Notes under the pieces: generated by a model
The model's input: the letters and a program-made list of their open reading frames with translations, nothing else
What the model was told of the DNA's origin: nothing
The model's database searches: none
Program-made: the position numbers and the translations under genes
Shown here: piece after piece, positions 10,954 through 33,493 of the stretch
Layout: each line of letters starts with the position of its first letter
Numbering within the stretch: the stretch's first letter is position 1
Source: a virus
Reading direction: 5' to 3' (one strand)
DNA length: 34,119 nt
Virus record (IMG/VR): IMGVR_UViG_3300022752_000217
Location: 1-34,119 of that record

Positions 10954-12201
10954 TTATTTAAGTTCGTGGTAGTTTTTACCTATTTTTGTTTTAATTTGTA
11001 ATTTTTTATCTTTAAATACCTGTTTTATTTGCTCTATTACATCCATTTCATTTTCATCCACATCAAACAAAAACGAATCGTACACATATAACACGAGTTT
11101 AGTATTTTTCCCTCGCAAAATCTTAAATATCTCATATAAGATAAGAACATTATTTGCGGTCTCCAAGTTCTGTAAAACATAATTTAAAAGCTTTTGCGGA
11201 TTCATGTTTTCCAGATCATTTTTTACAAATTTATAATCTGAGATAGGACACTCAATATATCCATTAAGGTTAAATAATTTCCATAAACTATCTGTATATT
11301 CTTTTACTTGTTGAAAAAAGTCCAAGGTTTCGTATTCTTTCCATATACCTCCATAAAGTTGTTTAAACGTAATCTCTTTTGCTTTTGCATAGTCCACCCC
11401 ATACATTTTAGAAAAAGATAAGTGGATATCATCACTACCAAAGTCGTAATTACAAAGATTAGCCAAAAGGGTAGGGTGGTAAGCAGATATATCAAACTCA
11501 ATAAAACTCTGATTGCGGGGTATAAAACATTTTCTTTCTTCATTGTCTTTATTTAGGGCTGAAAAATTAATACTGTTAAAAGCATTTGATGGTCTTGTTG
11601 TTAATGTGTTTAGGTTATATTGTGTGTATATAAATTCGTCTACTTGTTGGTCAAAGTACTGTTCAAATAATTGAGGATCCACTTTTATACCCGCTCGTTC
11701 TAGTTGATTAAACACCAATGCTGCTTTGTTGTAAAAAGGATTTGATTCGTCTTTAAAGTTTAAGTAGTTTTGTTCACATACCTCATAATGTTTTACAATT
11801 GGTACTATTGTGTTTAAATCTTGAATATTTGGGTATTTGTTGTAAATGTAATTGTGAGCTGTTGTTAATTGTGGTATATACGTATGGGGGGAGGGAGTGG
11901 GTTGGTAACAATGCTTAATGCAAAAATAATGTAAAAATTCCTTTCTATCCCTTACGTAAATGTTTTTTATACTGTTTAATACTTTTAAACAATCATCTAT
12001 TGTAGAATTTATTGTTTCACTATGATTTATAGGAATGATATATCCTTTATCATCTCTTTCAAAACGAAGGTATACAGCACATACACTATTTTCAACAGGA
12101 TGTAAATTATGTGAAGTAGGGATTACTTCAACATATGCGGTTTGATAACGAATACGACAAATTGTTTCTATATGTTTAGGATCTTCTATAAGCCAATACA
12201 T
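10954..12201 (-). CDS. Compact, divergent family A DNA polymerase, 415 aa
   Basis: Polymerase motifs of the Pol I family are visible in order. TTRPSNAFNSINFSAL (about 201-216) corresponds to the TGRxSS...NLQNIP region. Motif A is FIEFDISAYHP with Asp237. Motif B is AKAKEITFKQLYGG with Lys275, Phe279, Tyr283 and Gly284 (E. coli K758, F762, Y766, G767); the motif B arginine is replaced by Tyr271. Motif C is YVYDSFLFD, where Asp375 is kept but the usual HDE reads YDS. Residues 1-150 look like a shrunken exonuclease domain without its DxE metal residues. The Klenow fragment is about 600 aa, so this enzyme is much reduced. T4 itself uses a family B polymerase. Confidence 0.78.
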   Translation of the reverse strand: MYWLIEDPKHIETICRIRYQTAYVEVIPTSHNLHPVENSVCAVYLRFERDDKGYIIPINHSETINSTIDDCLKVLNSIKNIYVRDRKEFLHYFCIKHCYQPTPSPHTYIPQLTTAHNYIYNKYPNIQDLNTIVPIVKHYEVCEQNYLNFKDESNPFYNKAALVFNQLERAGIKVDPQLFEQYFDQQVDEFIYTQYNLNTLTTRPSNAFNSINFSALNKDNEERKCFIPRNQSFIEFDISAYHPTLLANLCNYDFGSDDIHLSFSKMYGVDYAKAKEITFKQLYGGIWKEYETLDFFQQVKEYTDSLWKLFNLNGYIECPISDYKFVKNDLENMNPQKLLNYVLQNLETANNVLILYEIFKILRGKNTKLVLYVYDSFLFDVDENEMDVIEQIKQVFKDKKLQIKTKIGKNYHELK

Positions 12202-21970: not shown

Positions 21971-22285
21971 TTATTTATATTTTACTGTTGATTTTTGGGG
22001 AGAAGAATTTTTTAAAAATTCAGGAGCAGTTACTTTTCCATCAGACCCAATTACTGTTTTAGCATTTCCACCTTTACTTTGACTTTCAACAGCTGCTTTT
22101 TCTTCATCGTAAAAATTTTGAATTTGTTTAAAGGTAAATTTACGAAGCCAAATTGGCATATTATAAATAGTATGCCAATCATAACCACCTTTTCCGTGGA
22201 AAACTATTTGATGAATTTGAGTAAATATAGCAGCTCTAGCTTGAGGTGCTATATCAGAAGTCAGGCCAAAAAAAGTTAAGTCCAA
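21971..22285 (-). CDS. Second reading frame of the tail assembly protein, probably made by frameshift
   Basis: The frame encodes GLTSDIAPQARAAIFTQIHQ, then FHGKGGYDWHTIYNMPIWLRKFTFKQIQNFYDEE, a well-formed helical sequence, so it is surely translated. It has no ATG near its beginning: the only candidate before the conserved part is TTG at 22285, and the first ATG is at residue 43, inside the KGG...NMPIWLR block. It overlaps the end of the gp26-like gene by about 30 bases in the +1 frame. Ribosomes could enter it from that gene at a T7 run, giving a fused protein of about 330 residues. It lies directly before the tape measure, where G/GT-type chaperone frameshifts occur. Independent TTG initiation is the alternative. 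Confidence 0.7.
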   Translation of the reverse strand: MDLTFFGLTSDIAPQARAAIFTQIHQIVFHGKGGYDWHTIYNMPIWLRKFTFKQIQNFYDEEKAAVESQSKGGNAKTVIGSDGKVTAPEFLKNSSPQKSTVKYK

Positions 22286-22982
22286 TTGGGATATTGACTC
22301 TATCGCTACTTTCGTCGGGAAAAAAAGTTAGATCAACATCGGGTTGAATCTCTCTAATATATTCTCTTAAAGCCCTAGAATCTTGGGCTAAAAGATAATT
22401 GTCTACAAATTCTCGAATATCTTTTTTATCCCTTTGACCATTAACAGACGTAATAATGTATTTTAATCGAGTTGAAAGTTCTGGAGAAGCATCACGATTA
22501 ATCTTTTTTAAGCCTTCTAACTCACGATTAACATCTTGTTCGTCTTTATGGGTTAAAAATTTAAATGTAATTAAATTACCTGATTTAGGGAGAGCAAAAG
22601 TAAATTCGTTTGTACGGTCTTTAAATAATTCTTCTTTTAATGGTTTATTTTCAATTTGAGATAAATCTACTGTATGGGTTTCATTTAAATAATTAAAAGT
22701 ATATTCAGCACCATATCCTAAAATACGAGCAGCAATCATAATTGCGTTTTTATCACCAATTAATAGATCATCATAATTAATTTTAGATACAACTAATGAT
22801 TTTAATAACTTATCAATTACAGTACCATTGTTTATATATGATTGGTTTGTAAGAATATCTTCTTCTTTAGCAGTCATATATTTAATTTCAATAACGCCTT
22901 TTGCTAATTCAGAATCTTCAGGATAAAGCAAGCCTTTTGATGGCAATTCAACTGTTTCAGTTGGCAATTTAAATTCACTCAT
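22254..22982 (-). CDS. T4 gp26-family baseplate / tail assembly protein, 242 aa
   Basis: The sequence KGVIEIKYMTAKEEDILTNQ, then VIDKLLKSLVVSKINYDDLLIGDKNAIMIAARILGYG is the pattern I associate with the T4 baseplate gp26 family (Pfam T4_baseplate), whose members lie before the tape measure in many T4-like phages. The C-terminus reads VNIPIGLNFFWPDF. T4 gp26 is needed for baseplate hub assembly. Near its end are two runs of seven T, and the second allows entry into the overlapping downstream frame. This makes it a candidate for the 'G' partner of a G/GT-type tail chaperone pair. The start at 22982 has no Shine-Dalgarno sequence, like the other genes here. Confidence 0.75.
   Translation of the reverse strand: MSEFKLPTETVELPSKGLLYPEDSELAKGVIEIKYMTAKEEDILTNQSYINNGTVIDKLLKSLVVSKINYDDLLIGDKNAIMIAARILGYGAEYTFNYLNETHTVDLSQIENKPLKEELFKDRTNEFTFALPKSGNLITFKFLTHKDEQDVNRELEGLKKINRDASPELSTRLKYIITSVNGQRDKKDIREFVDNYLLAQDSRALREYIREIQPDVDLTFFPDESSDRVNIPIGLNFFWPDF
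22266..22277 (-). other. Candidate +1 / -2 frameshift site (AAC TTT TTT TGG)
   Basis: In the gp26-like frame the codons are AAC TTT TTT TGG CCT GAC TTC TGA. A tRNA-Phe on the second TTT can move one base forward and still read TTT, after which GGC CTG ACT continues in the open downstream frame. A two-base backward slip gives the same result. The zero-frame stop follows four codons after the last TTT. A second T7 run at 22320-22326 in the same overlap is an alternative site. Confidence 0.55.
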
Positions 22983-23023: not shown

Positions 23024-23395
23024 TTAAAGAGTAGAAATGTTATCAGGATTTACATTATATGATAAAACTCCTTTTACTTTTAATATTTCTTTGCGTATGT
23101 CTTCCATTTTTGAACGATCAAAACCACCTTTTGCAATCCAAGGATGACCATCTACTTTAATTGTCATTATAGTTTGAAATTTTTCTGTGTTTTGTTCATT
23201 ATATGGCATTGGTTCTTTTGAAGATGCTACTGTAACTCCTGGAATAGAACGAATATCAGAGAATATTTCTTTTTGAGGGCGTTGTTTAATGTTAGAAATT
23301 AACATTCCTACCATTTTAAATTTGTCTTGGTATTCCTCGTTTAGTCGCTTGTTAAGCTCCTCTTTAACTAAAGTACGTAAATGGTTTAGTTTCAT
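23024..23395 (-). CDS. Hypothetical protein, 123 aa, with basic amphipathic N-terminus
   Basis: Not recognised with certainty. Two similar alpha/beta halves are suggested by SDIRSIPGVTVASSKEP followed by IMTIKVDG, and EDIRKEILKVKGVLSYNVN, as in ferredoxin-like folds. The N-terminus MKLNHLRTLVKEELNKRLNE is an amphipathic helix ending in L-N-E, a possible cleavage site of a T4 gp21-type prohead protease, which would mean packaging in the capsid (inference). An exact ATATTTATAAT element lies three bases from its ATG, so expression is probably late. It is the gene directly after the T9SS-type protein gene. Confidence 0.6.
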   Translation of the reverse strand: MKLNHLRTLVKEELNKRLNEEYQDKFKMVGMLISNIKQRPQKEIFSDIRSIPGVTVASSKEPMPYNEQNTEKFQTIMTIKVDGHPWIAKGGFDRSKMEDIRKEILKVKGVLSYNVNPDNISTL

Positions 23396-23398
23396 ACT

Positions 23399-23409
23399 AT
23401 TATAAATAT
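23399..23409 (-). promoter_or_regulatory. Late-promoter-like element ATATTTATAAT after the T9SS-type gene
   Basis: Exact copy on the coding strand, only three bases from the ATG at 23395 and four bases beyond the stop codon of the 819-aa gene. If it acts as a -10 element, the transcript would begin inside or at the start of the coding region, so the mRNA would be leaderless. Confidence 0.5.
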
Positions 23410-23413
23410 TGCA

Positions 23414-25873
23414 CTATCGAATAAGGGTAACATTTCCTTTAATTAAGGTTTCTTTATCTGTATTTTTATCTCCATACACTATAATCCAAGTGTATGTTCC
23501 ATCTTGACACATTGTATTGTTATATGTTCCGTCCCAAGCGGCTGCACTATCATAACTTTTAAATACTAATTCTCCCCAACGATTAAATATAGTTAAATAA
23601 AAATCAGTAGGGTCAAAACCTGAAGTAAATACTGGAAGCCAAGTATTGTTATTTTCATTTCCATCTGGGGTAAATGTATTTGGGATATAAATTAGTTCTT
23701 CGGGACATCTTTGAATAGTTGTTGCAAATGTTACAGGATATGATACACACCCATTTTGATACCCTACTACTGAAAAAGTAAATGTTCCAAAACTATTCCA
23801 TGAAATAGGTAAAGTTGGGTTTGCAATACTATCTTGATTTAAGATCCATACTATATTACCTCCACCGGAAACAGTTGCACTATAAACTCTACTTATACTG
23901 TCCCCTTCACATAATTCTATAAATTCAGATGTTGAATTTCCTAAATTATTTTGAATTTGTGAAATAGCGGGTCTAGGATAAACGGTTATTGAACGAGTAG
24001 TATCAAAAGTACAATTTGATTGTACATAAGTATATGTTATTGTATTAGTTCCTGTAATTAAAGGTGAAGGGCAAAATGTATTTCCATTAATACCATTACC
24101 GGTAAATGTTCCTCCAATAGGATTTCCAATTAATGTTACGCAATTAGCGTAGTCACATAACGGAGCAATTGAATCTATCGTAGGTAAAACGTTTAAAATA
24201 TAAACGTCAACCGCTTGTGGTAAACTTGTACAACCGTTTTGATTTATCGCTACTACATTAACAGCTCCTGGTATAAATCCTGGGGACAATGTTGACCAAT
24301 TTACTGTAATATTATTAGTTCCTTGACCTAAAGTAATATTTCCTATGCTTGACCAATTATAAGAATATCCTGCACCTAAGTTAGGTACTGAATAAGTTTC
24401 ATTAGTAGATAAATAACATATGGTATCTAATGAAGTAATATTTCCTACTACAATCATTGGTGGGTTTATTAATGTAATAGTATTTGAAGCAGGACAACCA
24501 TTTGCATCTGTTACGGTTACATTATATGTTCCTGCACATAAACCAATAGCAGTTTGTGTAATTTGACCATTACTCCATAAATAAGTGTATGGAGCAATAC
24601 CATCAATTGGATTTACTATTGCAGTTCCATTGCAATTTCCAAAACAAACAGGATTATTTGCTGCCATTAACGGTAATTGTAAAGCAGGAGGATTAATTAA
24701 AGTAGCATTTGCAGTTACAGTACAATTGTTTATATCAGTTACGGTTACAGTATATGTTCCTGCACATAAATTATTAATTGTTTGTGTTGTTTGACCATTA
24801 TTCCAAATATATCCAATAGGGGGAGTACCATTTGTTGGATTAACTGTAATAGAACCATTACAATCCCCATTACAAAGTGGATTTGTTGTTACAAAATTTG
24901 GTTGATTTAAAACAGGAGGACCAGGTTGTACAAATACTGTATCAGGACCTAATCCAACTCCAGCATTACATGTTGACCATCCAGTATTACATGCAGGATA
25001 TTCTAAATGACAAGTATAATTTGCACCTTGAACAGGAGGAGTTACTGTAATTTGATTTACACCTGTTGCAATTGGAACTGGGTTGCCTACTTGGTACCAA
25101 GTAAGAGTTGGAATAACGGATGGTCCACTTGGTGTCCATCGCCTTGCATCATTTACAGCAGTCCATTGTTGTGAATTTCTTCCTGCAACTGTTACAGCTT
25201 GGGTTCCTGTTGCATCATGAATTCCATGTACCGCAGTACCACCTGCCCATTGTGGGCAATTTGGTTTATTAGCAATATATGTTTCAATGTAATTTGTTGA
25301 TTCATATAACACAATATGAAATGTACCTTGTAAATTTGTACATGAATACATTGGAACTCCAATCCAACTTACAACTAGTTTTCTACAAGGTGCTGTACCT
25401 TGTACTTGATAACGTACTTGCCCACCAATTCCAGGGTTCCAATCTTGCCAAGGACCCATAATGCAATTTTTAGGAACTGCAGCATTTGCTGTTGGTATAG
25501 ATAAAGATGTAAATGTAAATGGTTGTGCTCCAGCACCTAAAGATACCCAACCATTTGATCCAATTCTAAATTGTGTATAAGTTTGTCCATAAAAGCAAAA
25601 TGTAAATCCAATATTAAATGTATTTGATTGGGTATCATCTCCTAAAGGTACTAAAGCTCCATTATTTATTTGAGCAATGTATGGTATTTGAGAAACAGTG
25701 TAATTTGTTGTTTGATTAGGGTTATTACCAGCAACACATTGACTTAAATCTGCGGTTAAAGTAGTTGAAATTACACCACAAGGTAAGTATTGATTAGGAC
25801 CTAAAAAAGGGCAAAATTGACTATAAACAAAACTAGTTAATAGTACAAATAAAAGTGTTTTAAATGTTTTCAT
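23414..25873 (-). CDS. Secreted SprB-repeat protein with type IX secretion C-terminal domain, 819 aa
   Basis: A Sec signal peptide (MKTFKTLLFVLLTSFVYS, cleavage probably before Gln19) leads a Cys-rich exported protein. Residues about 85-250 form a beta domain (FTFCFYGQTYTQFRIGSNGW; VRYQVQG; VVSWIGVP), recalling NIDO-like domains. Two SprB-like repeats follow at about 334-396 and 410-472 (NPLCNGDCNGSITVNPTNG; LCAGTYTVTVTDINNC). Residues about 728-819 are a gliding-motility-type (type B) T9SS domain: IYIPNTFTPDGNENN, then LTIFNRWGELVF, AAWDGTYNN, CQDGTYTW and KGNVTLIR. Such proteins are exported to the surface by Bacteroidota. The gene is co-oriented inside the tail cluster, between a terminator and a late-promoter-like element. 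Host acquisition is likely; superinfection exclusion, receptor decoy or virion adhesin roles are all guesses. Confidence 0.9.
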   Translation of the reverse strand: MKTFKTLLFVLLTSFVYSQFCPFLGPNQYLPCGVISTTLTADLSQCVAGNNPNQTTNYTVSQIPYIAQINNGALVPLGDDTQSNTFNIGFTFCFYGQTYTQFRIGSNGWVSLGAGAQPFTFTSLSIPTANAAVPKNCIMGPWQDWNPGIGGQVRYQVQGTAPCRKLVVSWIGVPMYSCTNLQGTFHIVLYESTNYIETYIANKPNCPQWAGGTAVHGIHDATGTQAVTVAGRNSQQWTAVNDARRWTPSGPSVIPTLTWYQVGNPVPIATGVNQITVTPPVQGANYTCHLEYPACNTGWSTCNAGVGLGPDTVFVQPGPPVLNQPNFVTTNPLCNGDCNGSITVNPTNGTPPIGYIWNNGQTTQTINNLCAGTYTVTVTDINNCTVTANATLINPPALQLPLMAANNPVCFGNCNGTAIVNPIDGIAPYTYLWSNGQITQTAIGLCAGTYNVTVTDANGCPASNTITLINPPMIVVGNITSLDTICYLSTNETYSVPNLGAGYSYNWSSIGNITLGQGTNNITVNWSTLSPGFIPGAVNVVAINQNGCTSLPQAVDVYILNVLPTIDSIAPLCDYANCVTLIGNPIGGTFTGNGINGNTFCPSPLITGTNTITYTYVQSNCTFDTTRSITVYPRPAISQIQNNLGNSTSEFIELCEGDSISRVYSATVSGGGNIVWILNQDSIANPTLPISWNSFGTFTFSVVGYQNGCVSYPVTFATTIQRCPEELIYIPNTFTPDGNENNNTWLPVFTSGFDPTDFYLTIFNRWGELVFKSYDSAAAWDGTYNNTMCQDGTYTWIIVYGDKNTDKETLIKGNVTLIR

Positions 25874-25884
25874 AGCCTTAATAT

Positions 25885-25927
25885 ATAAAAAAAGAAAATA
25901 AAAGCCCCAAATTTCTTTGGAGCTTTT
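25885..25927 (-). terminator. Strong rho-independent terminator between tail tube and T9SS-type gene
   Basis: On the minus strand a 12-bp stem (arms 25927-25916 and 25911-25900, one G-T wobble) encloses a GAAA loop and is followed by ATTTTCTTTTTTT. It lies 21 bases after the tail tube stop codon. The secreted-protein gene begins 12 bases beyond its T tract, so that gene is either transcribed by read-through or from a promoter hidden in this short interval. Confidence 0.88.
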
Positions 25928-25947: not shown

Positions 25948-26436
25948 TTAGTAATTCAAAATACAGTAATCTGGTTGAACTGTTACTTGAATGTTTACTG
26001 CAGTTCCATCATCATCCCAGTTATATTCACCAAATGTAACGTTAGTAATAACAGCTCCTTTAACAATCCATTCAGAAACAATATCACCTACAGGACCTAA
26101 AACATTAAAGGTAATATCTTTCTTATAAAAATCTGAGTAACCATCACGTCCTGTTACTGATTCATGTCCTAAACGTACCCATTCCATTACTGCTTGAGCA
26201 CCAGAAGGTGTAATAGGGTCAAATAAAGTAAATTGAATTGTACTCCATTTTGTTTTTCCTTTTACGTAACGTTGAACGTTAATATGGTTAAGAGCTACAG
26301 CAGTTTGTTCTAAAGTTACAGCACCCATTTGTTTAACAAGATATGAAGGAACTCCATCCATATAAAGAATAAAACGGTTTGTTTGTTTTGGTTCAAACGC
26401 TGTAAAAAATATTTCGTTTGGATTTAAAATTGCCAT
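25948..26436 (-). CDS. Tail tube protein, T4 gp19-like, 162 aa
   Basis: Forms the inner tube of the contractile tail. Length matches T4 gp19 (163 aa). Features: NRFILYMDGVPSYLVKQMG at the start, VKGKTKWSTIQFTLFDPITPSGAQAVMEWVR in the middle, and VKGAVITNVTFGEYNWDDDG followed by VNIQVTVQPDYCILNY at the end, all usual in gp19/tube-family proteins. It directly follows the two sheath genes, the T4 order (18 then 19). An exact ATATTTATAAT element lies 20 bases from the ATG, and a strong terminator follows, so the tube gene is bounded as its own unit, fitting a protein needed in many copies. Confidence 0.93.
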   Translation of the reverse strand: MAILNPNEIFFTAFEPKQTNRFILYMDGVPSYLVKQMGAVTLEQTAVALNHINVQRYVKGKTKWSTIQFTLFDPITPSGAQAVMEWVRLGHESVTGRDGYSDFYKKDITFNVLGPVGDIVSEWIVKGAVITNVTFGEYNWDDDGTAVNIQVTVQPDYCILNY

Positions 26437-26456
26437 TTGTTTTCTATTTTTATTTT

Positions 26457-26467
26457 ATTATAAATAT
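26457..26467 (-). promoter_or_regulatory. Late-promoter-like element ATATTTATAAT before the tail tube gene
   Basis: Exact copy on the coding strand, 20 bases from the ATG at 26436, the widest spacing of the set and enough for a short untranslated leader. Confidence 0.6.
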
Positions 26468-26483
26468 CTATAATTTTGTTTTT

Positions 26484-28202
26484 TTATCCTGGAAATTCAG
26501 CTCCTGTTGGTAACAAGATGAAATCCAAAGAAATAAATTCTGCTGTACGAGTTGGTTGAACATAAATTTGTCCTACTAATTGATTTTGATCAATTATTGC
26601 TGGTCCATTATTTGAATTATCCATAATTACTTTAAATGCATACAATCCTTGTTTTTGTTGGATAGCTTCTAAATATGGATTAACTTTAGCTAAAAATGAA
26701 GTTCTAGTTTGAATTGTGTTTTGTTCAAATACGATAGTATTTGCAATTTGACGAATATAATTTTTTAATTCAATCATCAAACGGCGTACATTTACACGAT
26801 CAAGAGCTGATTGTTCTTTTTGTAATGTTTTTTGTCCATATACTACAACCCCTTGTTTAGGTAATGTTGCAATTGGGTTAATATTACTAGCGTATAAATT
26901 ATCTCTATTACCTTGAGTTAATTTTAATTCAGCTTGTAATACTGTAGATAACCCACCACGATTAATACCTGCAGGTGCAAACCAAGGAGCAGATACTTTA
27001 TCATTAAATGCATAAACACCAGGTACTACTGTTGAAGCTGGAACCCAAACATGTTTTCCTGTTGCTGGGTCGATAATACGAACCCAAGGCCAATAAGCTG
27101 CAGCGTATGAAGTATTTCTAGTTTGAGCCTGGGTAATTGTTGAAGATACATTACTTCCATAAGATACTAAATCAGCTACAAACATATTATCACCTCTAGC
27201 AATTGTATTAGTAATAATATTTGTTATTTGAGCTGTATGAGTATCATCTAATAATCCTGGGGTAAATAATAAATTAAACTGATATGATTCAGGATTTCCA
27301 AGCAATGCAATCATATTGTTATAACTAGCACCAACTAATCCCTGAGTATTGGTAGAAATTTTATCATATAAATTAATAGTATTATTTACAGTTCCCCCGG
27401 CATTGTAAAATGATCCACCTGCTGAACCACTTCCATTTACTGGAATAGAAGCAGTATATGCAGGAATTGCAATCCCATTTGCATCAAAATAATTTGGAGT
27501 TGTATAATTTACTGCTTTTACACGAACAAATTTTGAATTATTTGGATAACTTCCAGATAATTCCATTTGGTTAGTAATTGAATTATATTGTAATTTTTGG
27601 TCACCAATTACTTGAGAAATATAACGAGATGAATTCGGGTCTAAATTTACATTATTCCATGTTTCAAGTATAACTTTATTATTTTCAGTATCATTACCAC
27701 GTCTAACTAATACATTAAAAGTACCTGATCCTGTATTTGAATTAGTAACTTCCCAACGAACGTTTTCAGCAGATCCTGAATTTAAAACTCCATTATTGCC
27801 TAGCATGTTAGAACCAGAGTTATTGTTAATGGTTCCTTCAGAAATTGTTTCTAAAACAAATGAAGCTGAGGTAAAATAATTAGGAATAATAGTACTTTGT
27901 GCAGATGTCCAGTTAGCTGATTCTGTTACAACACGAGCAACTAATAATGAAGTACCGCCGTAATTAAAATAGTTGTAAGCAGCTATTGATGTTAAATACG
28001 AATAAGCATTACCACCACTAATAAAAGAATCTCCAAATAACATTTGGAAATCAGAATAAGAAGTTACTAGAGTTGGTTTTTCTACGGGACCTTTTACTGT
28101 AGGACCTATAATAGCAGCACCTGCTTGAACCGGTTGTCCTGTCAAAAAGGTGTTATCTATTTCGCTGAGTGATACTCCAGGAGAAGTTGTGAATTTTGCC
28201 AT
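26484..28202 (-). CDS. Tail sheath protein, T4 gp18-like (copy 1), 572 aa
   Basis: Contractile sheath subunit. The N-terminus reads TSPGVSLSEIDNTFLTGQPV, then AGAAIIGPTVKGPVEKPTLV, the standard phage-sheath start. The C-terminal domain has AYWPWVRIIDPATGKHVWVPAS, then APAGINRGGL, YGQKTLQKEQSALDRVNVRRL and ending QPTRTAEFISLDFILLPTG, the conserved sheath core. Residues about 120-330 form the variable outer domain. It is shorter than T4 gp18 (659 aa). The next gene upstream is a full paralogue sharing both ends and most of the core. An exact ATATTTATAAT element precedes the ATG. Confidence 0.95.
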   Translation of the reverse strand: MAKFTTSPGVSLSEIDNTFLTGQPVQAGAAIIGPTVKGPVEKPTLVTSYSDFQMLFGDSFISGGNAYSYLTSIAAYNYFNYGGTSLLVARVVTESANWTSAQSTIIPNYFTSASFVLETISEGTINNNSGSNMLGNNGVLNSGSAENVRWEVTNSNTGSGTFNVLVRRGNDTENNKVILETWNNVNLDPNSSRYISQVIGDQKLQYNSITNQMELSGSYPNNSKFVRVKAVNYTTPNYFDANGIAIPAYTASIPVNGSGSAGGSFYNAGGTVNNTINLYDKISTNTQGLVGASYNNMIALLGNPESYQFNLLFTPGLLDDTHTAQITNIITNTIARGDNMFVADLVSYGSNVSSTITQAQTRNTSYAAAYWPWVRIIDPATGKHVWVPASTVVPGVYAFNDKVSAPWFAPAGINRGGLSTVLQAELKLTQGNRDNLYASNINPIATLPKQGVVVYGQKTLQKEQSALDRVNVRRLMIELKNYIRQIANTIVFEQNTIQTRTSFLAKVNPYLEAIQQKQGLYAFKVIMDNSNNGPAIIDQNQLVGQIYVQPTRTAEFISLDFILLPTGAEFPG

Positions 28203-28213
28203 TTTATTTTTTT

Positions 28214-28224
28214 ATTATAAATAT
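28214..28224 (-). promoter_or_regulatory. Late-promoter-like element ATATTTATAAT between the two sheath genes
   Basis: Exact copy on the coding strand, 11 bases from the ATG at 28202. Each sheath gene has its own copy, so their levels could be set independently. Confidence 0.6.
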
Positions 28225-28248: not shown

Positions 28249-30357
28249 CTAAGATGGGAATGTTGCACCTGTAGGTAATATATTAAAGTCTAATATAATA
28301 AACTCAGCAGTTCTAGTAGGTTGCAAATATATTTGACCTATTAATTGATTTTGATCAACTACTGAAGGTGGGTTGTTGGTTTCATCCATTACTACTTTAA
28401 ATGCTGTTAAACCTTGTTGTTGTTGAACAGAAGCTAAATATGGATTAACTTGAGATAAAAAGTTATTTCTAGTTATAATATTATTTTGTTCAAATACTAA
28501 AGTATCAGCTATTTGAGAAATGTAGTTTTTAAGTTCAATCAATAAACGTCTAACATTTACACGATCTAAAGCACTTTTTTTCTTTTGTAATGTTTTTTGT
28601 CCATATACTACAACTCCAGTATTAGGAAAAGTAGCAACAGGGTTAACATTATTTTGGTAAAGTAAATCTCTATTTACTTGAGTTAATACTCTTTCAGTTT
28701 GAATAGCATTTGCAATAACTCCTCTATTTATTCCAGCAGGAGCAAACCATGGATGAGTTGTACTATCATTAAATGCATATACCCCAGGAATTAATGTTGA
28801 TGCAGGAACCCAAACTTGGGTTCCAGTATTGGGATCAATAGTTTTAACCCAAGGCCAATAAGCTGCAGCGTATGAAGTATTAAATGCAATTGCATTAGAT
28901 GTTACCGGAAGTAAATTTGAATTATATCCAACTAAGTCTATAATAGTCATTGCGTCTCCTCTATTTTGAACAGTAGTAATTAAGCTAGAAACTACATTAA
29001 AATGAGAAGGAAAATTTGTTCCATCTCCTATTAATCCAGGAGCAGTTATAAAATTATAATTATATGCATCTTTATTTGCTAATAATGAAATTGATTCTGT
29101 ATAATCATTAGATGTTAATCCTTGAATATTTAAGTTAGAGATATTTTCATAATAAGCTCCAGCAACACCTGAAGGGATATTTTTTCCTGTAGCACTACCA
29201 AAAGAACCACTAGAATAATAAGGAATGGAGCCTGTAAATTGTGGTTTTGGATTTCCTACATTATCTAAATAATCTGGGGTAGGTGTTTTTACTTGTTTTA
29301 TTCTTATATAGTTAGATTTATTAGGATAATTACCTGATAATTGGACATAATATTCTCCAGTAGATAAATCTTGAAGAACAGTTTCAATTTGATTACCTAT
29401 TACTTTTTCAATATAATTAGAAGAATTAGGGTTTAATGATAAATTAGTCCAAGATTCTAAAATAGAAGGAGCAATATTTGAATCATTTCCTTGTCTAATT
29501 AATAAAGTAAAAGTACCATCATTAATATTAGTAGAATTAATTTCCCATCTATAATTTTCTGAAGATCCACTTAATAAAGTTCCATATAAACCTAAAGGAC
29601 CAGTACTATTCATTAATTCTCCTTCAGATAAAGTTTCTAAAATAAATGCTTCAGTATTAGTACCACCTGAAAAATAAACTGTAGTGCTTCCAGAAATGTA
29701 ATAATATGCATTTCCTAATAATCCATTAGGATTTGTAGATGTTAATATTAAATTTGGAGAAGTAGCACTTGAACTTATATATTGCCAAGATGAACTATAA
29801 GGTGCTACTGAACTACTAACGTTAAATATTTGAGAAGAAGATAAAGCATAGTTTGCTATAGTAGAAGCAGCAAATGATGCCGTATTAATATAAACAATAG
29901 TAGAAGTATTAGTAACTGTTGATCCTGTAAAATATAAAGTAATTCCATTTACATTTAATGAACTTGAACCTACTGCGGCTACACTAGCAGAAACAAATGT
30001 TAAATCAATTGTAGCTGAAGCAGAAGTAGCTGCAGTAGAAGTTGGAATTACTGATGAGGTTGCTGGGGTAAATGATCCACTTACAACTCGGGTTACTAAT
30101 AGTGAAGTACCACCACTATTAAAATAATTATATGCTGAAATTGATGTAAAATAAGTATATGTTTGGCTACTACTTTTAAATGTAGATCCAAATTTATTCA
30201 AATAATCACTATAAGTAGTAACTAATGTAGGTATTCCTACTTTACCTTTAACTGTTGGACCTATAATAGCAGCACCTGCTTGTACAGGAGCTTGTGTTAT
30301 AAAAGATTGGTCATTTTCTATTGCTAATACACCAGGTGATACAATTGTTTCTGCCAT
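28249..30357 (-). CDS. Tail sheath protein, T4 gp18-like (copy 2, with inserted domain), 702 aa
   Basis: Paralogue of the neighbouring 572-aa sheath. Shared marks: VSPGVLAIENDQSFITQAPV, AGAAIIGPTVKGKVGIPTLV, AYWPWVKTIDPNTGTQVWVPAS, YGQKTLQKKKSALDRVNVRRL, QPTRTAEFIILDFNILPTG. The 130 extra residues fall in one block at about 106-236, rich in Ser, Thr, Ala and Asn with beta-like alternation (SLNVNGITLYFTGSTVTN; NAYYYISGSTTVYFSGG). It probably forms an extra domain on the sheath surface. Both copies look intact, with no frameshift or internal stop. Mixed sheaths, or one copy acting at the tail end or in a different host, are possible; the sequence does not decide. Confidence 0.94.
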   Translation of the reverse strand: MAETIVSPGVLAIENDQSFITQAPVQAGAAIIGPTVKGKVGIPTLVTTYSDYLNKFGSTFKSSSQTYTYFTSISAYNYFNSGGTSLLVTRVVSGSFTPATSSVIPTSTAATSASATIDLTFVSASVAAVGSSSLNVNGITLYFTGSTVTNTSTIVYINTASFAASTIANYALSSSQIFNVSSSVAPYSSSWQYISSSATSPNLILTSTNPNGLLGNAYYYISGSTTVYFSGGTNTEAFILETLSEGELMNSTGPLGLYGTLLSGSSENYRWEINSTNINDGTFTLLIRQGNDSNIAPSILESWTNLSLNPNSSNYIEKVIGNQIETVLQDLSTGEYYVQLSGNYPNKSNYIRIKQVKTPTPDYLDNVGNPKPQFTGSIPYYSSGSFGSATGKNIPSGVAGAYYENISNLNIQGLTSNDYTESISLLANKDAYNYNFITAPGLIGDGTNFPSHFNVVSSLITTVQNRGDAMTIIDLVGYNSNLLPVTSNAIAFNTSYAAAYWPWVKTIDPNTGTQVWVPASTLIPGVYAFNDSTTHPWFAPAGINRGVIANAIQTERVLTQVNRDLLYQNNVNPVATFPNTGVVVYGQKTLQKKKSALDRVNVRRLLIELKNYISQIADTLVFEQNNIITRNNFLSQVNPYLASVQQQQGLTAFKVVMDETNNPPSVVDQNQLIGQIYLQPTRTAEFIILDFNILPTGATFPS

Positions 30358-30374
30358 TGTAAATAAATTATTTT

Positions 30375-30385
30375 ATTATAAATAT
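30375..30385 (-). promoter_or_regulatory. Late-promoter-like element ATATTTATAAT before sheath copy 2
   Basis: Exact copy on the coding strand, 17 bases from the ATG at 30357. Confidence 0.6.
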
Positions 30386-30667: not shown

Positions 30668-30678
30668 AAATTTATTTT

Positions 30679-30689
30679 ATTATAAATAT
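30679..30689 (-). promoter_or_regulatory. Late-promoter-like element ATATTTATAAT before the coiled-coil gene
   Basis: Exact copy on the coding strand, 11 bases from the ATG at 30667 and one base beyond the stop codon of the 48-aa gene. Confidence 0.6.
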
Positions 30690-33471: not shown

Positions 33472-33482
33472 GTTATTATTTT

Positions 33483-33493
33483 GTTATAAATAT
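33483..33493 (-). promoter_or_regulatory. Late-promoter-like element (one mismatch, ATATTTATAAC) before the neck operon
   Basis: Ten of 11 bases match the consensus, 11 bases from the ATG at 33471. It follows the T tract of a terminator with one base between. This terminator-then-element arrangement is the best local argument that the element starts transcription. Confidence 0.6.

Follow-up and report, generated by a model that had tools for sequence, protein, structure and literature searches.

A putative type B cargo of the host type IX secretion system, encoded at an insertion hotspot between phage tail genes

Phages encoding cargo of the bacterial type IX secretion system (T9SS) are already on record. 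Cryophage encodes T9SS type A cargo, for which superinfection exclusion was suggested (PMC7468147, 2020), and crAss-like phages of cluster 2 encode T9SS-domain proteins (PMC6949934, 2019). Both precede the protein analyzed here, for which an earlier note had known of no described system of this kind. Like our protein, the Cryophage proteins carry a T9SS sorting domain, vary between variants, and were proposed to use the host system (PMC7468147). Their domains, however, are of type A and sit on two glycoside-hydrolase-type proteins and one PA14 protein of a single phage, whereas ours is of type B, on an adhesin-like protein that belongs to a clade spread across many large phages. The crAss-like proteins likewise place T9SS sorting domains in phage genomes near structural genes; they lie upstream of the head section, together with BACON proteins, and the accessible text describes no SprB/CHU_C type B family (PMC6949934). 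In the literature searched (subscription papers and preprints excluded), we found no type B family with SprB repeats that is conserved among large phages.

We analyzed a 34-kb viral record, hereafter the window (the whole stretch of DNA), which carries T4-like replication genes and tail genes on the minus strand. Judged by its sequence, one of the encoded proteins is a phage-encoded type B (SprB-like) T9SS cargo with the following features.

23414-25873, minus strand: cargo ORF, 819 aa, phage-encoded T9SS type B cargo as predicted from sequence
25820..25873, minus strand: Sec-type signal peptide, aa 1-18, predicted cleavage before Q19 (from the sequence and the invariant +1 Q)
24920..25819, minus strand: N-terminal beta domain (N-domain), aa 19-318
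24788..24895, minus strand: SprB repeat 1, aa 327-362 (PF13573)
24554..24664, minus strand: SprB repeat 2, about aa 404-440 (second stretch of PF13573, boundary set by eye)
24224..24448, minus strand: PKD-like domain, aa 476-550 (PF19408)
23690..24223, minus strand: beta-rich, probably Ig-like stalk, aa 551-728 (from strands of the full-length model; no Pfam match)
23417..23689, minus strand: type B T9SS C-terminal sorting domain, aa 729-819 (PF13585 and TIGR04131)

The earlier note had read a Sec signal peptide, a Cys-rich beta N-domain, two SprB-like repeats, and a gliding-type C-terminal domain from the letters, and all four were recovered. The C-terminal domain matched CHU_C (PF13585; 1.7e-14, 54.2 bits against a Pfam cut-off of 27) and TIGR04131, the NCBIfam profile of the T9SS type B sorting domain (43.7 bits against a cut-off of 35), and the motifs quoted in that note were located within aa 730-819: IPNTFTPDG (aa 730-738), NRWGE of the quoted IFNRWGE (aa 764-768), WDGTYN (aa 780-785), DGTYTW (aa 791-796), and VTLIR (aa 815-819). 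The domain shows five conserved blocks; type B domains are described as having five conserved motifs, A-E, whose letters the text of the reference paper does not print. Both SprB repeats (PF13573; 3.2e-14, 52.7 bits against 28) and PKD_6 (PF19408; 3e-9) also exceeded their curated Pfam cut-offs, and the two kinds of profile proposed in the note as a check, sorting-domain and SprB-repeat, thus both matched. The signal peptide, MKTFKTLLFVLLTSFVYS followed by Q, was assigned by eye and by conservation in aligned relatives, whose N-termini have a charged and hydrophobic start and an invariant +1 Q that is kept in divergent phages. There are 11 Cys within the N-domain. A weak, below-cut-off Pfam match to "Toxin_4" on a short Cys-containing stretch was rejected as chance.

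The N-domain was modeled as mostly beta (pLDDT 93.8) and the full-length protein as a string of beta domains (mean pLDDT 75.9, pTM 0.34); one row, from an annotated record, was left out of the model input. Pfam searches with the N-domains of 83 relatives gave mostly weak matches to NIDO (15/83) and Ig_7 (10/83). A fold search of the N-domain against the PDB yielded no useful match (best TM ~0.19 among the matches listed), and one against BFVD yielded an uncultured phage protein at TM 0.52, the others being weaker. By sequence, a single PDB relative was recovered, GhpA of Aureispira (PDB 9flp), whose repeat/PKD stalk aligns to the repeat/stalk region (profile 326-722, E = 2e-47). GhpA, however, is a 5898-aa bacterial protein, and the phage N-domain is unmatched by sequence. 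Since GhpA matches only the repeat/stalk region and the N-domain lacks a close solved fold, the ligand is not readable from structure. SprB and other type B adhesins of Flavobacterium johnsoniae share with our protein a signal peptide, SprB repeats, and a type B sorting domain (PMC12618676, PMC9143113). SprB, a host adhesin of very large size, is paired with an adjacent SprF of its own, whereas the phage-borne protein comes with no shuttle gene; because of its 819 aa and the lack of an sprF-like neighbor, we did not file it as SprB.

An adjacent PorP/SprF gene is common for type B cargo, not universal. Orphan type B cargo is known, and orphan substrates share a shuttle (PMC12618676), so a missing neighbor of this kind does not exclude type B cargo. 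No PorP/SprF-family Pfam match was obtained among the neighboring ORFs of the window. The family was likewise found in 0 of 24 phage records searched, many of them fragments, in a search made in two parts: the control was silent in the first, and in the second, on further phages, two Bacteroidota genomes matched, with 10 and 17 members. Export would then need a host shuttle; because many of the records are fragments, this does not prove that phages lack one. Type B cargo is recognized strictly by its shuttle, so export by any given host is not assured, and type B shuttles are scarce, overproduced type B fusions remaining unsecreted unless an extra shuttle is supplied (PMC12618676).

The cargo gene lies in a tail locus, whose features are given below.

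25948..26436, minus strand: tail tube gene (phrog_4542), upstream flank of the insertion site
25900..25927, minus strand: intrinsic terminator between the tail tube and cargo genes, present in filled and empty sites
25871..25891, minus strand: TATATATTA box just 5' of the cargo start codon, weakly promoter-like
23398..23408, minus strand: late-promoter-like motif TATTTATAATA of orf123, directly after the cargo gene
23024..23395, minus strand: orf123, without assigned function, downstream flank of the insertion site
22254..22982, minus strand: baseplate hub gene (phrog_150)
23398-23408, 26456-26466, 28213-28223, 30374-30384, 30678-30688, 33482-33492: examples of late-promoter-like TATTTATAAYA copies

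All neighbors had been described as tail genes on the same strand. This is right for the tube and two sheath genes upstream and for the hub and a tape-measure-like gene downstream; orf123, directly downstream, has no tail annotation. The two adjacent sheath genes (26484-28202 and 28249-30357) encode proteins of 572 and 702 aa, both assigned to phrog_23.

In a scan with the hub protein, 80 loci had the tube gene as well; the cargo gene stood between tube and hub in 6 of these and was missing from 74, among them that of the cultured Flavobacterium phage immuto_2-6A, in which the tube gene adjoins the hub gene. Of the sites in the closest relatives, which all have orf123, six are filled and six are empty with the same flanks, and the cargo gene sits between the conserved post-tube terminator and the TATTTATAA motif of orf123. 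The tube-hub junction is an insertion hotspot, since elsewhere it holds varied, unrelated small genes (L200, L207, L210, L213, L228, L239, and others). By its layout, the cargo gene is an optional accessory, moron-like insert between conserved phage genes. It has a terminator upstream and, downstream, the late motif that belongs to orf123; support for a promoter of its own is weak, and there is no terminator after it. Four loci (L183, L185, L186, and L189) combine N-domains 68-71% identical to that of the window with hub and orf123 genes that are 80-87% identical, and these diverged N-domains next to closer flanking genes suggest allele exchange at the insertion site.

The window has 10 copies of TATTTATAAYA where 0.66 would be expected; all lie on the coding strand, and nine directly precede an ORF, mostly of a structural gene. 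The motif is missing at the cargo start in the window, where TATATATTA is found instead. In phages with the cargo gene elsewhere, TATTTAT lies ≤35 nt from the start codon in 24 of 39 distinct upstream regions, compared with 1.6 expected from shuffles. Because of this enrichment, late expression of the cargo family is likely; timing is less certain for the window gene, because the clear late motif is missing there. A scan for sigma-70 promoters gave fewer sites than in shuffled sequence and was discarded.

Scans of IMG/VR returned 53 relatives with the protein query and 190 viral relatives with an alignment query. On 23 contigs the cargo gene directly follows the tail tube gene, at 77-91% identity (~78-87% for full-length copies), and orf123 and the baseplate hub gene come after it where the contig continues. 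Other phages have it next to GroEL, thymidylate synthase, or topoisomerase genes. The earlier idea of a phage T9SS cargo in a tail cluster is partly borne out: by sequence, the protein is a type B cargo that is selected and not chimeric, and a search for the same domain beside tail genes, which the earlier note had proposed, gives the 23 contigs; the link to tails is local, given an optional insert that is found in unrelated contexts in other phages. Sheath relatives were found on 11 of 19 contigs where the cargo gene lies elsewhere, so many of these phages are contractile-tailed. Relatives reside on contigs of up to 436 kb and in the 635-kb record LR745206, which has four CHU_C matches, two in L056 and the others near 499 kb and 579 kb. 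On another contig (L054, 7932-8797, plus strand), two overlapping frames have partial N-domain matches with no CHU_C on the contig, and may be a decayed copy.

Compared with ten relatives, dN/dS was 0.16-0.25 overall and 0.12-0.31 for the sorting domain, values by which the cargo gene is under purifying selection. Across phages, conservation is highest in the N-domain (aa 19-318); the SprB part differs in length and in the number of its repeats. In N-domain trees built by quick searches with midpoint rooting, long branches removed, and sampling ranked by similarity, all 70 sampled viral sequences formed one clade (SH-aLRT 99), as had 65 of 65 in an earlier tree (SH-aLRT 98). This clade stands beside chromosomal proteins of Bacteroidota. 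Among the nearest are L057 (817 aa) and L058 (815 aa), chromosomal orphans that resemble the phage protein in compact length and in their N- and C-terminal domains (N-domain ~63-67% identical), but have chromosomal-type neighbors and fall outside the phage clade. That they are prophage genes was rejected, as their neighbors look chromosomal. The L058 contig is filed under a gammaproteobacterial MAG, although its genes look like those of Bacteroidota; a genome from the Bacteroidota class searched has an N-domain identical to that of L058, and L058 is likely mis-binned. The N-domain family is present in 166 of 395 genomes of the class of L057, the presumed host class (E ≤ 1e-15). The T9SS signal and the nearest cultured relatives, which are Flavobacterium phages, point to a Bacteroidota host.

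We consider it probable that a host-derived accessory gene, whose sampled viral copies form a phage-specific clade, provides infected Bacteroidota cells with an adhesin-like coat that is phage-encoded and T9SS-exported. This reading goes beyond the sequence in proposing actual export, a place on the cell surface, late timing, an orientation, and a purpose. The chain would reach the periplasm by Sec, and its type B C-terminal domain would hand it to the host T9SS and a host PorP/SprF-family shuttle. The shuttle would place it on the outer surface, presumably with the conserved N-domain outward on the SprB/PKD/Ig-like stalk. The likeliest purpose, which we suggest hesitantly, is altered adsorption at the infected or lysed cell, through masking of receptors or displacement of host surface cargo, which would keep progeny or rivals from binding to that cell. 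Next, and somewhat unlikely, infected cells might be made to stick to other cells. If the coat exists, these large phages would use the secretion system of their host to remodel its surface during infection, to an extent for which the literature searched has no report, and this would offer a testable route to phage control of adsorption, superinfection, or aggregation in Bacteroidota.

Other explanations bear on the same data. The bacterial look of the domain content would fit an assembly chimera of host and phage DNA, which the earlier note had named as fatal to its claim; however, 23 syntenic contigs from many metagenomes share the upstream neighbor at 77-91% identity and relatives have matching empty sites, so we rejected the chimera, whose chance is negligible. 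Capture of a host gene by chance, functionless for the phage, would agree with the abundance of such genes in host genomes and with the gene being optional. It is nevertheless very unlikely in view of a phage clade of at least 70 sequences with intact frames and a dN/dS of ~0.2, repeatedly present in phages of different gene order.

A virion structural protein, namely a beta-rich decoration of the tail or whiskers with secretion-like ends that only bind the host surface, is improbable: the signal peptide and the complete type B sorting domain are maintained under selection, the gene is missing from 74 of 80 tube-hub junctions, including those of six close relatives, and it adjoins non-tail genes in other phages. 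In its favor are the position among tail genes, a weak PHROG match to Hoc-like head decoration via the repeats, and the fact that Ig-like domains are common on phage particles. We give a small chance to a competitive cargo, which at high expression would fill the scarce type B shuttle or T9SS and strip host adhesins such as SprB, its own display being secondary. The behavior of overproduced type B fusions described above (PMC12618676) and the finding of no phage shuttle speak for it. A sorting domain alone would suffice to jam the system, yet it is the N-domain that is most conserved across phages.

The adhesin-like coat may have a second form. In three phage contigs, a second cargo is divided among three neighboring genes, whose products each begin with a signal-peptide-like stretch, and further loci of this type were recognized.

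L261 2277-4483, minus strand: three-gene cargo locus
L262 2118-4326, minus strand: three-gene cargo locus
L263 224-2435, plus strand: three-gene cargo locus
L265-L344: three-gene cargo loci

The middle gene had 100 viral relatives in the scan, and all three genes were recognized in 66 loci. The first and second proteins of the 52 distinct sets terminate in H-N or H-D, with H in 52/52, a count that is unbiased only for the second gene because the first was selected by requiring that H. In the second protein, PI-x precedes the terminal H-[ND] in 52/52 sets, and in 39/52 there is a one-base overlap between genes 2 and 3. The head (first) proteins vary in length and domain. Aligned to the window protein, the split points are domain borders. 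Host genomes have the middle module in four of 395 (E ≤ 1e-15), only within long frames of at least 531 aa.

Type V pili are built by donor-strand assembly, and by analogy the PI-x-H-[ND] tails may each supply a donor strand that completes the following subunit. We tentatively propose that Bacteroidota phages as a class build T9SS-exported adhesin fibers on infected cells, in a one-chain form (window) and a three-chain form whose exchangeable head, PKD linker, and type B anchor would be exported as separate proteins, the first two with tails that may be donor strands. The N-domain and the three-chain sets are defined proteins to assay.

At positions 10954-12201, the window encodes a 415-aa protein whose match to a DNA polymerase family covers only a C-terminal portion of it (phrog_17 positions 956-1232), which suggests a split polymerase.
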